Source: Spirochaetae bacterium HGW-Spirochaetae-3
Lineage (GTDB): Bacteria > Spirochaetota > Spirochaetia > Treponematales > UBA12059
NCBI GenBank assembly: GCA_002839315.1
Contig: PGXV01000009.1
Coordinates: forward strand, 62,001-126,000
DNA length: 64,000 nucleotides
Direction of reading: 5' to 3'
Part shown: one piece after another, positions 36,478-52,720 of the stretch
Position numbering within the stretch: position 1 is the stretch's first letter
Layout: each line of letters starts with the position of its first letter
The notes under the pieces: generated by a model
What the model saw: only the letters and a program-made list of their open reading frames with translations
Database searches by the model: none
What the model was told of the DNA's origin: nothing
Program-made: the position numbers and the translations under genes

Positions 36478-37662
36478 TCAATGACGGTTCAGCGCCTTGT
36501 CCATCGCCGCTATCGCGAGGATGACGGCTACCCCGATGGGGATGTACCATAGCGCCAAGCGCATGTCCGCGGCGTCGGCTAGCCGGCCGAGGAGGAACGG
36601 CGCGAGCCCGATCGCCGATCCGGAGGCTACGGGCACGAGAGAGCTGGCCTTGGCGGCGTTGCCCTGGGCGTGCCCCAGAGCGAGCGACAGGCCCAGCGGA
36701 TAGAAATTCGATGAGCCGAAGCCGCAGAGCGCCAGCCCGAGGAAGGTGAGCGGGACGCCGGCCCGGAGCCAGTACAGCGGGAATCCCGCGAGGACGACAG
36801 CCAGCATCACGAGCAGGAGCCTGTTCTCGGGTATCCTGTGCCCGATCCTGCTCGATACGAAACGGCCCGCGACCGCGGACAGCCCGAGCAGTACCGTGCC
36901 GGCGGCGGCGAGCCCGCGCGAGTTGCCCGGAAGCCCGAGCAGGTAGGTCATGCACCAGAAACTGACGGCCCATTCTACCGATACGCCGAAGAAAACGACC
37001 AGCCACATGCGCCAGAACGCCCCGCCCAGCCGCCCGCCGCCCGCGTCAGCCCGTTCGTCGCGAGCGGCCTGGTTCTTCAGCGTCGCCGGAATCCCGAAGC
37101 TCGCCACGGCGACCAGCGAGGCGAGCATGACCGGGAACACGATGCGCCAGCCGAGGAACCAGCGCGCCCCCGCCAAGAGTACGAGCGGCACGAGCATGGT
37201 CAGCGCGCTGGCCATCACGTTGGCCTCCATGATCAGCTTGCCGCGATGCCTGGCGGATCCGTTGGCCAGGGCCGTCTGGATGGTAGCGAGCGCGACCGTC
37301 CCGCCGAGGCTCATGATGAAGACGCCGGCCAGCGTCAGCGCCGGCCCGCGGGCGAGCACCATCACGAGGAGCCCCGCCAGCATGTCGGCCATGCCGCCCC
37401 ACAGGCACCTGGCTACGCCGAAGCGCTTGATGATCGGCCCTCCCGCCATGCCCATCGTCACCATGCCGAGCGCGAAGGCGCTCTGGTGCAGGCCCGCGAG
37501 CCCGTAGCTCATCGAGAATTCGTCCCGAAGGTACGGCACCATCGGGCCTATCATCGACAGCATGAACGAGAAGAGGCCGAGGAGTACGTAGAGCGCCCAT
37601 ATGAACGGCGTCCGGATCAGCGCGCCGCCGTCGGGCGCGGGGGTGTTCAGCGTGTTAGTCAT
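36478..37662 (-). CDS. MFS transporter
   Basis: 394 residues with twelve predicted helices. The loop after helix 2 reads GGPIIKRFGVARCLWGG, an MFS A-like motif; the second half has SSRIGHRIPENRLLL. Substrate unknown; the N-terminal DEFSMSYGLAGLHQSAFALGM resembles FucP/NarK-like and drug-type carriers only in general. It diverges from the hydrogenase-like chemoreceptor gene. Confidence 0.8.
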   Translation of the reverse strand: MTNTLNTPAPDGGALIRTPFIWALYVLLGLFSFMLSMIGPMVPYLRDEFSMSYGLAGLHQSAFALGMVTMGMAGGPIIKRFGVARCLWGGMADMLAGLLVMVLARGPALTLAGVFIMSLGGTVALATIQTALANGSARHRGKLIMEANVMASALTMLVPLVLLAGARWFLGWRIVFPVMLASLVAVASFGIPATLKNQAARDERADAGGGRLGGAFWRMWLVVFFGVSVEWAVSFWCMTYLLGLPGNSRGLAAAGTVLLGLSAVAGRFVSSRIGHRIPENRLLLVMLAVVLAGFPLYWLRAGVPLTFLGLALCGFGSSNFYPLGLSLALGHAQGNAAKASSLVPVASGSAIGLAPFLLGRLADAADMRLALWYIPIGVAVILAIAAMDKALNRH

Positions 37663-37771: not shown

Positions 37772-37805
37772 CGGGAATACACCATTGATAAAAAGAGGGG
37801 CCGTC

Positions 37806-39929
37806 ATGCAGCCGAAATCGGAATCGCCGTCGTTAAGCCCGGTCATCGCCGTCGATGAGGACCTGTGCGTCAATTGCCATATGTGCATCGCCGTCTGTCC
37901 CGTCAAGCTGTGCATCGACGGGTCGGGCGACAAGGTCACGATCAACGCCGACATGTGCATAGGCTGCGGCAGTTGCGTACAGGCCTGCACGCAGAAGGCC
38001 CGGTCTATCGTCGACGATTCCGCAGCGTTCCTCGAGGCCCTCGGCCGAGGCGAGAAGATGGTCGCCGTAGTCGCGCCGGCGATAGCCTCCAGCTTCCCCG
38101 GGCGGTATCGGCGTTTCCTGGGTTGGCTCAAGAGCCTCGGCGTGTCGGCTTGTTTCGACGTCAGCTTCGGGGCGGAGCTGACGGTGAAGTCGTACGTACG
38201 ACACATCGACGAGGCGGAGCCGACGCTCGTGATCGCCCAGCCCTGTCCGGCGATCGTCAGCTATATAGAGCTGTACAGGCCGGAGTTGCTCCAGTATCTC
38301 GCGCCCGCGGATAGTCCCATGCTTCATACCATAAAGATGATCCGGGAGTACTACCCGGAGTATCGCGACCATAAGACGTTGGTTGTCTCGCCTTGCGCCG
38401 CCAAGAAGCGGGAATTCCAGGAGACCGGCATGGGCGACTATAACGTTACCATGCGCTCGTTCGACGAGATCCTCAAGTCGCGGAATGTGGATCTATCGCG
38501 GCAGTCCGAGGCCGACTTCCAGAACGGGCCGGCCGAGCGCGCCGTGCTGTTCTCCACCCCCGGCGGACTCCTCCGTACGGCGGAACGGGACGCGCCCGGC
38601 CTCCGCGACAGGACGAGGAAGATCGAGGGGCCCGAGCTCGTCTATCCGTATCTCGATTCGCTGCCCGCGGCGTTGAAGCGCGGAGTCAACCCGTTGCTCG
38701 TCGATTGCCTCAATTGCGCATACGGATGCAACGCGGGACCGGGCACGCTGAACCAGGACGCCTCTCCCGATGATATGGAGCATGCGGTCGAGCTTCGCTC
38801 CATCGAGGGGCGACGGACCTACGCGGGCAGGAGGGGCGGCGATAGGACGTCGAGTAAACGCGTAGCCAAGGCCCTCTCCCGCTACTGGAAACCGGACCTG
38901 TACGCGAGGTCGTACGTCGATCGGTCGGCTAATTACCGGATTCGCGTCCCCGATGATATAGAGCTCGCGCGGCTCTACGCCGATATGCTCAAGGACGGCC
39001 AGAAGGATCACCTGAATTGCGCGGCCTGCGGCTATAAGTCGTGCCGCGGCATGGCCGTCGCCGTCTATAACGGACTCAACAAGAAGGAGAATTGCCATCT
39101 GTATCGCCAGCGGGTGATAGAGAAGGAGCAACGGGTCGTTGACGGATCGTCGACCCGGCTCAATGCCGAGATCCAGCTCGCCCTGGAGGATATCCGCGCG
39201 ATATCGGGCGAGCTCGAGACATTGAGCGCGCGCGCGGAGACCCAGTTCACCGCGATACTATCGTCTTCCGCCGAGGTCGGGGACATGATCGAGACGCTGT
39301 CCCGCGCTTCCGAGATAGCGTCGGGCAAGCGCAGGCAGATCATGAGCCTCGCCGACGCCGCGGAAGGCGGAGAGCGCGGCATGCACTCGACCATGGAAGC
39401 CATACGCAGGACCTCGGCCGAGGTCTCGGGCATAGGCGAGATGATCGGCGTCATACAGGACGTGGCGGAAAGAACCAATCTCCTGGCTATGAACGCGGCG
39501 ATCCAGGCCGCTCGCGCGGGTAGCGCAGGCAAGGGCTTCGCCGTCGTCGCGGACGAGATACGAAATCTCGCGGAGGCGACCAAGAGTCAGGCGAACGGCG
39601 TCGGCGGTTCGCTCGCCTCCATAATGGAGCAGATCGCGGTTTCCGACGGCATGATCCTCCAGACCGAGACGAACATGCAGTCGATGTCCCGCGACGTCGG
39701 GGTGATGGCGGAGGATATGTCCGGGCTCATCGATTCGTTTACCGGGCTCTCGTCCGGCGGGACCAAGGTCATCGACGGGATAGAGGAGCTTAAGACCGCT
39801 TCCGCCGAGGTCAAGGAGATCTATTCCAATATCTCCGGGAAAATTGAGGGCCTGCTCGCGATGATAGGCACGATCGCGTCCATATCCGCCGAGACCCAGG
39901 AAACGATCTCGGCCATGACGCGCCGATAA
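37806..39929 (+). CDS. [FeFe]-hydrogenase-like sensor fused to a chemotaxis (MCP) signalling domain
   Basis: 707 residues, no transmembrane segment. Two ferredoxin clusters: Cys21/24/27/31 and Cys51/54/57/61. The hydrogenase catalytic-domain homologue (about 85-315) keeps H-cluster ligands in AQPCPAI (Cys147), PCAAKKRE (Cys197) and NCAYGCNAGPG (Cys304, Cys308), but the proton-relay Cys of the catalytic TSCCP motif is Pro146. A further 4Fe-4S domain follows (Cys405/408/413/430). Residues 450-707 are an MCP hairpin with [18 protein letters not shown]. It should sense H2 or redox state in the cytoplasm and signal to CheA. The downstream MBL gene overlaps by one base. Domain calls are sure; function is inference. 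Confidence 0.9.
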   Translation: MQPKSESPSLSPVIAVDEDLCVNCHMCIAVCPVKLCIDGSGDKVTINADMCIGCGSCVQACTQKARSIVDDSAAFLEALGRGEKMVAVVAPAIASSFPGRYRRFLGWLKSLGVSACFDVSFGAELTVKSYVRHIDEAEPTLVIAQPCPAIVSYIELYRPELLQYLAPADSPMLHTIKMIREYYPEYRDHKTLVVSPCAAKKREFQETGMGDYNVTMRSFDEILKSRNVDLSRQSEADFQNGPAERAVLFSTPGGLLRTAERDAPGLRDRTRKIEGPELVYPYLDSLPAALKRGVNPLLVDCLNCAYGCNAGPGTLNQDASPDDMEHAVELRSIEGRRTYAGRRGGDRTSSKRVAKALSRYWKPDLYARSYVDRSANYRIRVPDDIELARLYADMLKDGQKDHLNCAACGYKSCRGMAVAVYNGLNKKENCHLYRQRVIEKEQRVVDGSSTRLNAEIQLALEDIRAISGELETLSARAETQFTAILSSSAEVGDMIETLSRASEIASGKRRQIMSLADAAEGGERGMHSTMEAIRRTSAEVSGIGEMIGVIQDVAERTNLLAMNAAIQAARAGSAGKGFAVVADEIRNLAEATKSQANGVGGSLASIMEQIAVSDGMILQTETNMQSMSRDVGVMAEDMSGLIDSFTGLSSGGTKVIDGIEELKTASAEVKEIYSNISGKIEGLLAMIGTIASISAETQETISAMTRR

Positions 39930-40684
39930 TGGCCGCGCGCGGTATCGAGCTCGACCCGGGGCTCGTGCTCTTCCAGGTCGACCCCCCCGAGGGCGAGATC
40001 GAAGGCCTCAACTTCATGGCGATAGTCGACGACGGGCGCGCCCTTTTTATCGATACCGGCTACGCGGTGGATATGGCCGCCGCGCTCGCCGATCCGTATC
40101 TCGAGGGCGTCGTGCCGTACGGCGCTGTCGTCTCGCATTACCATCCCGACCACGACGGCGGCCTCCCGCTGCTGGGGAAGGTGGACGTCTGGGCGAGCGA
40201 CGCGTGGCGCGCTACGGCGGACGCGTGGCGAGAGCCTGGAGGAGCCGCCTCGGTGGAGCCTACGAGGCTCGTGTCGGGGCGCACCGAGCTCCGTTTCGGC
40301 CGCCGGATCCTCGAGCTGTATCCGCTCCCGGGGCACTCCGACGACTCGCTGGCCGTCGTGATCGACGGCGCCTGGCTGTACGTCGCCGACGCCGTCCTGC
40401 TGACCAACGACGGCCGGCCTCTGCTACCCTCGGTGCATAGCCGGCCCGTCTCCCGCCACGTAGACGCGATGGACTGGCTGGCCGCTCGGACGGATCTCGT
40501 CTTCATACCGGGTCACGGCTCCGTGATGGCCGACCGCGGGCAACGGGAGCGCGACATCAGGAACCGTCAACGCTACCTGTCGGCCATAGCGGGCGCTCAG
40601 GGCGGCATTTCGTTCGCCGACGCGACCGCAGGTTGCGATCCGCCGTTCTTGGGCGAGGCCTGGCACGAGCATAATTACCGCTGA
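39929..40684 (+). CDS. Metallo-beta-lactamase-fold hydrolase coupled to the hydrogenase-like sensor
   Basis: 251 residues. HYHPDHDGG supplies the HxHxDH metal motif; LPGHSDDSLAV, YVADAVLL and FIPGHGSVM are the other metal-binding and fold motifs of the glyoxalase II/RNase Z/FprA superfamily. No flavodoxin domain. Its ATG shares a base with the TAA of the sensor gene (TAATG), so translation is coupled and a joint role in redox or H2 sensing is likely. The substrate cannot be told. Confidence 0.85.
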   Translation: MAARGIELDPGLVLFQVDPPEGEIEGLNFMAIVDDGRALFIDTGYAVDMAAALADPYLEGVVPYGAVVSHYHPDHDGGLPLLGKVDVWASDAWRATADAWREPGGAASVEPTRLVSGRTELRFGRRILELYPLPGHSDDSLAVVIDGAWLYVADAVLLTNDGRPLLPSVHSRPVSRHVDAMDWLAARTDLVFIPGHGSVMADRGQRERDIRNRQRYLSAIAGAQGGISFADATAGCDPPFLGEAWHEHNYR

Positions 40685-51427: not shown

Positions 51428-52720
51428 ATGGCGCATAATACTATCAAGTCCAGTTACGCAAGCCTGACCGAGCGACTCAATAGGTTCCCCCAGGGCGCGC
51501 CGCCTTCCGACCTGCTGTTCGCCATACTCAGGCAGCTGTTCAGCGAGAAGGAGGCCGGGATGGTCTCCCTGTTGCCCATAAAGCCGTTCGACGCCGCCCG
51601 CGCCGCCGCCGCATGGCGGACGACACCCTCCGACGCCAAGAAGACGCTGGACGAGCTGGCGAGCAGGGCCCTGCTCCTCGATACGGAGCGCGACGGCGAG
51701 ACCACGTACTGCCTGCCTCCGCCCATGGCCGGCTTCTTCGAATTCTCGATGATGCGGGTGCGTAGCGACCTCGATCAGAAGGCGCTGGCGGAATTGTTCT
51801 ACCAATACCTGAACGTCGAGGAAGACTTCATCAAGGCGCTGTTCACGAGCGGCGAGACGCAGCTCGGCCGCGTGTTCGTTCAGGAGCCGATGCTCCCGGA
51901 TTCTGAGCCCGGCGGCGGGGAACTACTCGTGCTCGACTACGAGCGCGCCAGCGAGGTCATCAAGACCGCTACGCGCATCGGCGTCGGCATGTGCTACTGC
52001 CGCCATAAGATGATGCACCTGGGCCGGGCCTGCGACGCGCCGATGGATATCTGCATGACCTTCAACGGCTCGGCCGAATCGTTGACCAGGCACGGGCACG
52101 CGCGCGCTATAGACGTGGCCGAGTGCATGGCCCTCCTCGATACCGCGTACGAGCGCGGGCTCGTGCAGTTCGGCGAGAACGTACGGCGACGCGTCAACTT
52201 CATCTGCAACTGCTGCGGCTGCTGCTGCGAGGCGCTGATAGCTCAGCGCCGCTTCGGTATCCTGCACCCGGTGCATACGACGAACTATATCCCGAAGGTC
52301 AAGGAGGAGAGCTGCACGGGATGCGGCCGCTGCGTAGAGGCCTGCCCCGTCGAGGCGATGGCCCTGGTATCGGCCGAGGATTCCAAACGCCCCGCCAGGC
52401 GCAAGGCCAAGGTGCTCGAGGACGCCTGCCTCGGTTGCGGCGTCTGCGTTCGCGCCTGCCCGACCGGCGCCCTATCGCTGAAGTCACGCCCCGCGCGCGT
52501 TTTCACCCCGGTGGATTCGACGCACCGCGCGGTCATCATGGCCATCGAGCGCGGAAAACTACAGAACCTGATCTTCGACAACGGCGCGCTGGCGAGCCAC
52601 CGGGCGATGGCGGCCATTCTCGGGGTGATCCTGCGCCTGTCCCCGGTCAAGCAACTGATGGCCAGTGAGCAGATGAAAAGCAAATACCTGCTCAAGCTAC
52701 TGTCTATCGTCAAGCCGTAA
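51428..52720 (+). CDS. Cysteine-rich 4Fe-4S ferredoxin-type protein with N-terminal winged-helix-like region
   Basis: 430 residues. Residues about 25-100 look like a winged helix (AWRTTPSDAKKTLDELASRALLL). MCYCRHKMMHLGRACD with CMTF (Cys189/191/202/209) and NCCGCCCEAL (Cys260-267) are unusual clusters, followed by two classical ferredoxin sites: Cys296/299/302/306 and Cys334/337/340/344. Soluble. Related proteins occur near hydrogenases or reductive dehalogenase-like systems, but the partner is unknown here. No strong SD is seen. Confidence 0.8.
   Translation: MAHNTIKSSYASLTERLNRFPQGAPPSDLLFAILRQLFSEKEAGMVSLLPIKPFDAARAAAAWRTTPSDAKKTLDELASRALLLDTERDGETTYCLPPPMAGFFEFSMMRVRSDLDQKALAELFYQYLNVEEDFIKALFTSGETQLGRVFVQEPMLPDSEPGGGELLVLDYERASEVIKTATRIGVGMCYCRHKMMHLGRACDAPMDICMTFNGSAESLTRHGHARAIDVAECMALLDTAYERGLVQFGENVRRRVNFICNCCGCCCEALIAQRRFGILHPVHTTNYIPKVKEESCTGCGRCVEACPVEAMALVSAEDSKRPARRKAKVLEDACLGCGVCVRACPTGALSLKSRPARVFTPVDSTHRAVIMAIERGKLQNLIFDNGALASHRAMAAILGVILRLSPVKQLMASEQMKSKYLLKLLSIVKP

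Follow-up and report, generated by a model that had tools for sequence, protein, structure and literature searches.

A soluble chemoreceptor built on an [FeFe]-hydrogenase fold in a spirochaete without HydE, HydF or HydG: a probable Fe-S redox receptor

The window (the whole 64,000-nucleotide stretch of contig PGXV01000009.1 of Spirochaetae bacterium HGW-Spirochaetae-3 analysed here) encodes a chemoreceptor that is probably a soluble, cytoplasmic Fe-S receptor for redox or energy taxis. Its fold and its four cubane cysteines are those of [FeFe]-hydrogenases; it would hold no diiron subcluster in this organism, and it appears to be the product of a free-standing gene, the MBL-fold gene that follows it being incidental. 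The locations of the features are given in Table 1.

Table 1. Features of the receptor locus, in window coordinates.
Feature	Position	Strand	Basis
Hydrogenase-derived soluble chemoreceptor, 707 aa	37806..39929	+	ORF, Pfam domains, full-length orthologs
Shine-Dalgarno-like AGAGGGG ahead of receptor ATG	37794..37800	+	Sequence
Ferredoxin domain, two [4Fe-4S] sites (Cys21/24/27/31/51/54/57/61)	37851..38003	+	Pfam Fer4, invariant columns
[FeFe]-hydrogenase H-domain, residues 84-312	38055..38741	+	Pfam Fe_hyd_lg_C, PDB sequence and Foldseek matches
L1 motif AQPCP, Pro146 in place of CpI C299, Cys147 = CpI C300	38235..38249	+	CpI alignment
L2 motif SPCAAKKRE, Cys197 = CpI C355, Lys200 = CpI K358, Ser195 for M353	38388..38414	+	
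L3 motif DCLNCAYGCNAGPG, Cys304/Cys308 = CpI C499/C503, extra invariant Cys301	38703..38744	+	
Cx2Cx4Cx16C [4Fe-4S] domain, Cys405/408/413/430	39018..39095	+	Pfam FeS, spacing as in groups C and D
MCP signalling hairpin, helices 431-570 and 572-706, tip near Gln567	39096..39923	+	Pfam MCPsignal, AlphaFold model
MBL-fold hydrolase, full metal site H70 H72 D74 H75 H136 D154 H196	39929..40684	+	Lactamase_B, sequence
Divergent MFS transporter	36478..37662	-	Neighbour of receptor

The initial annotation described a soluble protein that joins two ferredoxin sites, a hydrogenase H-domain, a further 4Fe-4S domain and an MCP hairpin, and the open reading frame, Pfam matches and hydropathy bear this out. 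The ferredoxin folds lie within residues 16–65 (Pfam), where Cys36 (window 37911-37913) is a ninth invariant cysteine beyond the eight cluster ligands. Fe_hyd_lg_C matches the H-domain with an E-value of 2.4e-29, FeS (PF04060) matches residues 403–430, and MCPsignal matches residues 518–680 (E 1.3e-28, 100 bits) with the conserved tip present; Pfam finds neither PAS nor HAMP. Hydropathy gives no membrane segment: the mean over 19 residues reaches at most 1.56, as against 2.94 for a membrane MCP encoded in the same window. The sensor half is compact in the AlphaFold model (pLDDT 85 on average, about 70–84 in the coil), and two antiparallel helices form a full MCP hairpin. The model's best PDB matches by Foldseek are [FeFe]-hydrogenases, which confirms the fold only.

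Several of these features argue for redox sensing. The cysteines of the ferredoxin and FeS domains do not vary across the aligned receptors, the first long helix of the model begins one residue past the cluster ligand Cys430, PAS, HAMP and membrane segments are lacking, and the organism's own genome carries two CheA genes. Coupling to CheA is predicted and plausible. In such a receptor, electrons taken up by the N-terminal pair of ferredoxin clusters would alter the H-domain cubane and the Cx2Cx4Cx16C cluster next to it, in redox state or in occupancy. This would shift the MCP coiled coil at its base (in the model the coil starts just after the last cluster cysteine), and the hairpin would modulate CheA. 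Direct signalling by the C-terminal cluster is made uncertain by the group D protein TamHydS, in which H2 was found to leave that cluster unreduced (PMC13104023).

Residue equivalences to the enzyme CpI were taken from a profile alignment and a direct residue table. First, all four cubane cysteines of the H-cluster are present (C147, C197, C304 and C308), and the replacement of the proton-relay cysteine by Pro146, noted at the outset, is confirmed. Second, the whole proton path is lost, with P146, Y130, H133 and A166 standing for C299, E279, E282 and S319; further substitutions are Met172 for Q325, Leu302 for M497 and Cys301 for V496. Third, the domain is shortened, the distance from L2 to L3 being 107 residues (C197–C304) as compared with 144 in CpI (C355–C499). 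Fourth, diiron-site residues of the enzymes are conserved (A90, P91, K200 and F249, corresponding to A230, P231, K358 and F417), which counts against the redox reading. Finally, Q145, P146, C147, S195, C197, K200, C301, C304 and C308 are common to 24 of 24 MCP-type receptors, and the residue table has the histidine-kinase-type relatives differing at L1 and at Lys200. At two loci (L024 and L040, in genomes G057 and G042) the sensor module belongs to proteins of about 890 aa with histidine-kinase-like ends, an L1 of QCCP or QTCP, and His or Ile at the Lys200 position.

The extra cysteine, Cys301, is invariant in an 18-row alignment of receptors and missing from the aligned proteins of HydS or catalytic type that the same genomes encode. 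This alignment came from a search without a motif seed and was used because DCL[NS]C was one of two seeds in our scan of named genomes, so that Cys301 cannot be counted from that scan. The distribution of Cys301, together with the conservation of the pocket residues without H-cluster machinery, speaks for a gas or stress sensor in which a modified cluster, made up of the cubane and Cys301, is reactive towards O2, NO or CO, or in which another metal occupies the vacated diiron pocket; since both the metal content and the placing of Cys301 by the cluster are predictions from sequence, however, we regard such a sensor as quite unlikely.

The genome itself, which is 98.3% complete in 18 contigs, has no match to HydE or HydG, and its only matches to HydF are sub-threshold ones to generic GTPases, with none at the family level. 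Lacking all three maturases, this organism has no known route to the diiron subcluster. [NiFe] hydrogenase is also absent, no catalytic-type [FeFe] hydrogenase was found, and the only other hydrogenase-like gene at E <= 1e-20 encodes a HydS-type sensor, not an enzyme. H2 sensing in this organism is therefore unlikely, and the same absences, together with the sensor nature of the one other hydrogenase-like gene, argue for the redox reading. Thus, where the initial annotation gave the signal as H2 or redox potential, the redox half survives and the H2 half is not supported here. The HydS-type gene (contig 14 of G000, locus L038, 889-2883 and 1-935, minus strand) has the L1 motif SSACP, lies beside a gene for a SpoIIE-like phosphatase and belongs to this same genome, which lacks HydEFG. 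Assembly gaps are an unlikely cause of the missing genes, given that three would have to be hidden at 98% completeness and that 24 of the 31 phylum genomes that carry the sensor module without HydG are at least 95% complete. In another genome (G005, 94% complete) no HydE, HydF or HydG exceeds the cut-off despite a catalytic-type [FeFe] hydrogenase (L048:4923-6368) with a TSCCP-like L1, which adjoins a HydS-type sensor.

HydG was compared with the sensor module across the phylum, a carrier being defined as a genome whose module scores above about 570 bits (80 of 393). HydG is present in 49 of the 80 carriers and absent from 31, as compared with 78 of the 313 other genomes, giving an odds ratio of 4.8 (p 3e-9) with shared ancestry ignored. 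This co-occurrence is in keeping with H2 sensing by some members of the family and counts against the redox reading, and because of it H2 sensing is possible in those relatives that have HydEFG. Nonetheless, the smaller tree requires at least six changes in HydG status among related rows, and no difference in pocket residues that tracks this status was found in the 24 MCP-type receptors. These shifts with an unchanged pocket, and the 31 carriers without HydG, are further arguments for a redox receptor; because the pocket stays identical as HydG comes and goes, selection may be preserving the cubane site and what surrounds it for a function in which the diiron subcluster is dispensable.

The same data bear on whether this is a true H2 chemoreceptor, with a full H-cluster that is reduced on H2 binding and an MCP part that relays the signal, as HydDB proposes for group C2. 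The architecture equals that of C2, the cubane cysteines and the equivalents of K358 and F417 are retained, the module is associated with HydG overall, and the two closest relatives, G003 and G006, possess HydE, HydF and HydG. We nevertheless consider it unlikely, since none of the three maturases is in the organism's own nearly complete genome, many near-complete carriers have no HydG, and neither another hydrogenase nor, as a source of H2, a [NiFe] enzyme is found in the same cell.

Full-length or near-full orthologs of the receptor are present in 20-odd of 59 relatives, with full-length homologs 55–75% identical in the family and 41–47% in the order, far beyond chance. The scan of named genomes yielded at least 515 sensor-module relatives, the best 80 of which are mostly from Spirochaetota and Bacteroidota and otherwise from Ignavibacteria, Desulfobacterota, Verrucomicrobia and Clostridium; named records matching near relatives are uncultured Spirochaetota MAGs (e.g. 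SZUA-370 and HGW-Spirochaetae-7). A recognisable MCP tip is present in 44 of these best 80, and others have C-terminal coiled coils or, as read from sequence, phosphatase-like domains. In the tree, receptors, histidine-kinase-type and other fused relatives are on one side of a well-supported branch, and HydS-type sensors and catalytic-type enzymes stand apart. One receptor (L014, G007 contig 225) is split into two overlapping frames of 462 and 281 aa, by a frameshift or an assembly error. It is a tentative and somewhat doubtful extension that the whole 'chemotactic hydrogenase' class consists of H-cluster-free receptors and not H2 sensors, with a modified Fe-S site that includes Cys301 as a fifth cysteine and with swimming steered by the intracellular redox state.

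The MBL protein matches Lactamase_B (E 1.3e-8), and its start overlaps the receptor stop by one base (TAATG), as originally described. The functional coupling proposed for the two proteins did not hold: absence of the gene pair from relatives had been named beforehand as a ground for refuting it, and the pair is absent from every other genome examined. At the cut-offs used, 3 of 393 phylum genomes have an MBL ortholog, as do 5 of 59 relatives. Both genes are present in only one other genome (G003), where separate contigs carry them and where, as in G006, a MATE transporter follows the receptor. G004 has no receptor match, and its MBL gene is near an MFS gene resembling that upstream of the receptor in the window; in G007 a similar MFS gene is oriented divergently from the receptor. 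Flanks of 80 further loci contain no close MBL homolog, the only matches being weak ones at L071 and L072, and an MBL-like gene of any kind is found in 3 of the 80. In G015 and G020 an MBL gene of a different family, with an altered metal motif, is two genes downstream of the receptor, which we treat, informally, as coincidence because so few loci have any such gene. The different MBL family at L072:9013-9909 and L071:5431-6330 has Asn in place of the second His (motif THSNADH), two genes downstream of the receptor and beside a gene for a CPBP-like membrane protein. A dedicated two-gene system of receptor and enzyme could appeal to the one-base overlap, which suggests translational coupling in this genome, and to the downstream genes of G015 and G020; set against the rarity of MBL orthologs, their different settings in G003 and G004 and the 80 loci without a close homolog, it is highly improbable. 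We therefore reject the partnership, already largely refuted, on distribution and context, and judge the MBL gene of the window an incidental neighbour. Elsewhere in the window (51428-52720, + strand), a 430-aa protein carries two sets of ferredoxin-type cysteines close to the C-terminus.

The architecture is already known, since HydDB names [FeFe] group C2 'Chemotactic (putative)', with H2 sensing proposed and the role putative (PMC5037454). The receptor resembles C2, as matched by class description, in joining an [FeFe]-hydrogenase domain to MCP signalling, here in a single polypeptide; in contrast to the H2-sensing proposal, this host is without the means for a known H-cluster. C2 matches were removed from a survey of acetogens after validation checks, and the literature on termite spirochaetes has no paper on the receptor among the matches listed. 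What is new here is that many carriers are without maturases, that the receptors share an extra invariant cysteine, and that the MBL pairing is rejected. Such proteins are listed in HydDB and later surveys as putative H2 chemoreceptors, a label that would be misleading for many carriers if these cannot make the H-cluster; hydrogenases would then be overcounted in metagenomes, and these soluble redox receptors would form a widespread family awaiting its first experiment, for which carriers with and without HydEFG offer a natural comparison.

Among characterised sensors, the receptor is like TmHydS and TamHydS (groups C and D; PMC8163306, PMC13104023) in its two N-terminal [4Fe-4S] sites, its H-domain without proton-relay residues and its Cx2Cx4Cx16C C-terminal cluster, and like group D in having Ser/Thr (Ser195) at the position of CpI M353. 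It departs from both in having Pro for the relay Cys, the additional Cys301, and no PAS domain (in group C this follows the C-terminal cluster), the MCP hairpin being attached directly. Aer is a membrane-anchored receptor for redox and energy taxis that uses an FAD-PAS domain to sense the state of electron transfer in the cytoplasm and signals to CheA. The receptor described here is predicted to share with Aer this cytoplasmic sensing of electron transfer and output to CheA, and differs in being soluble and in using Fe-S clusters.
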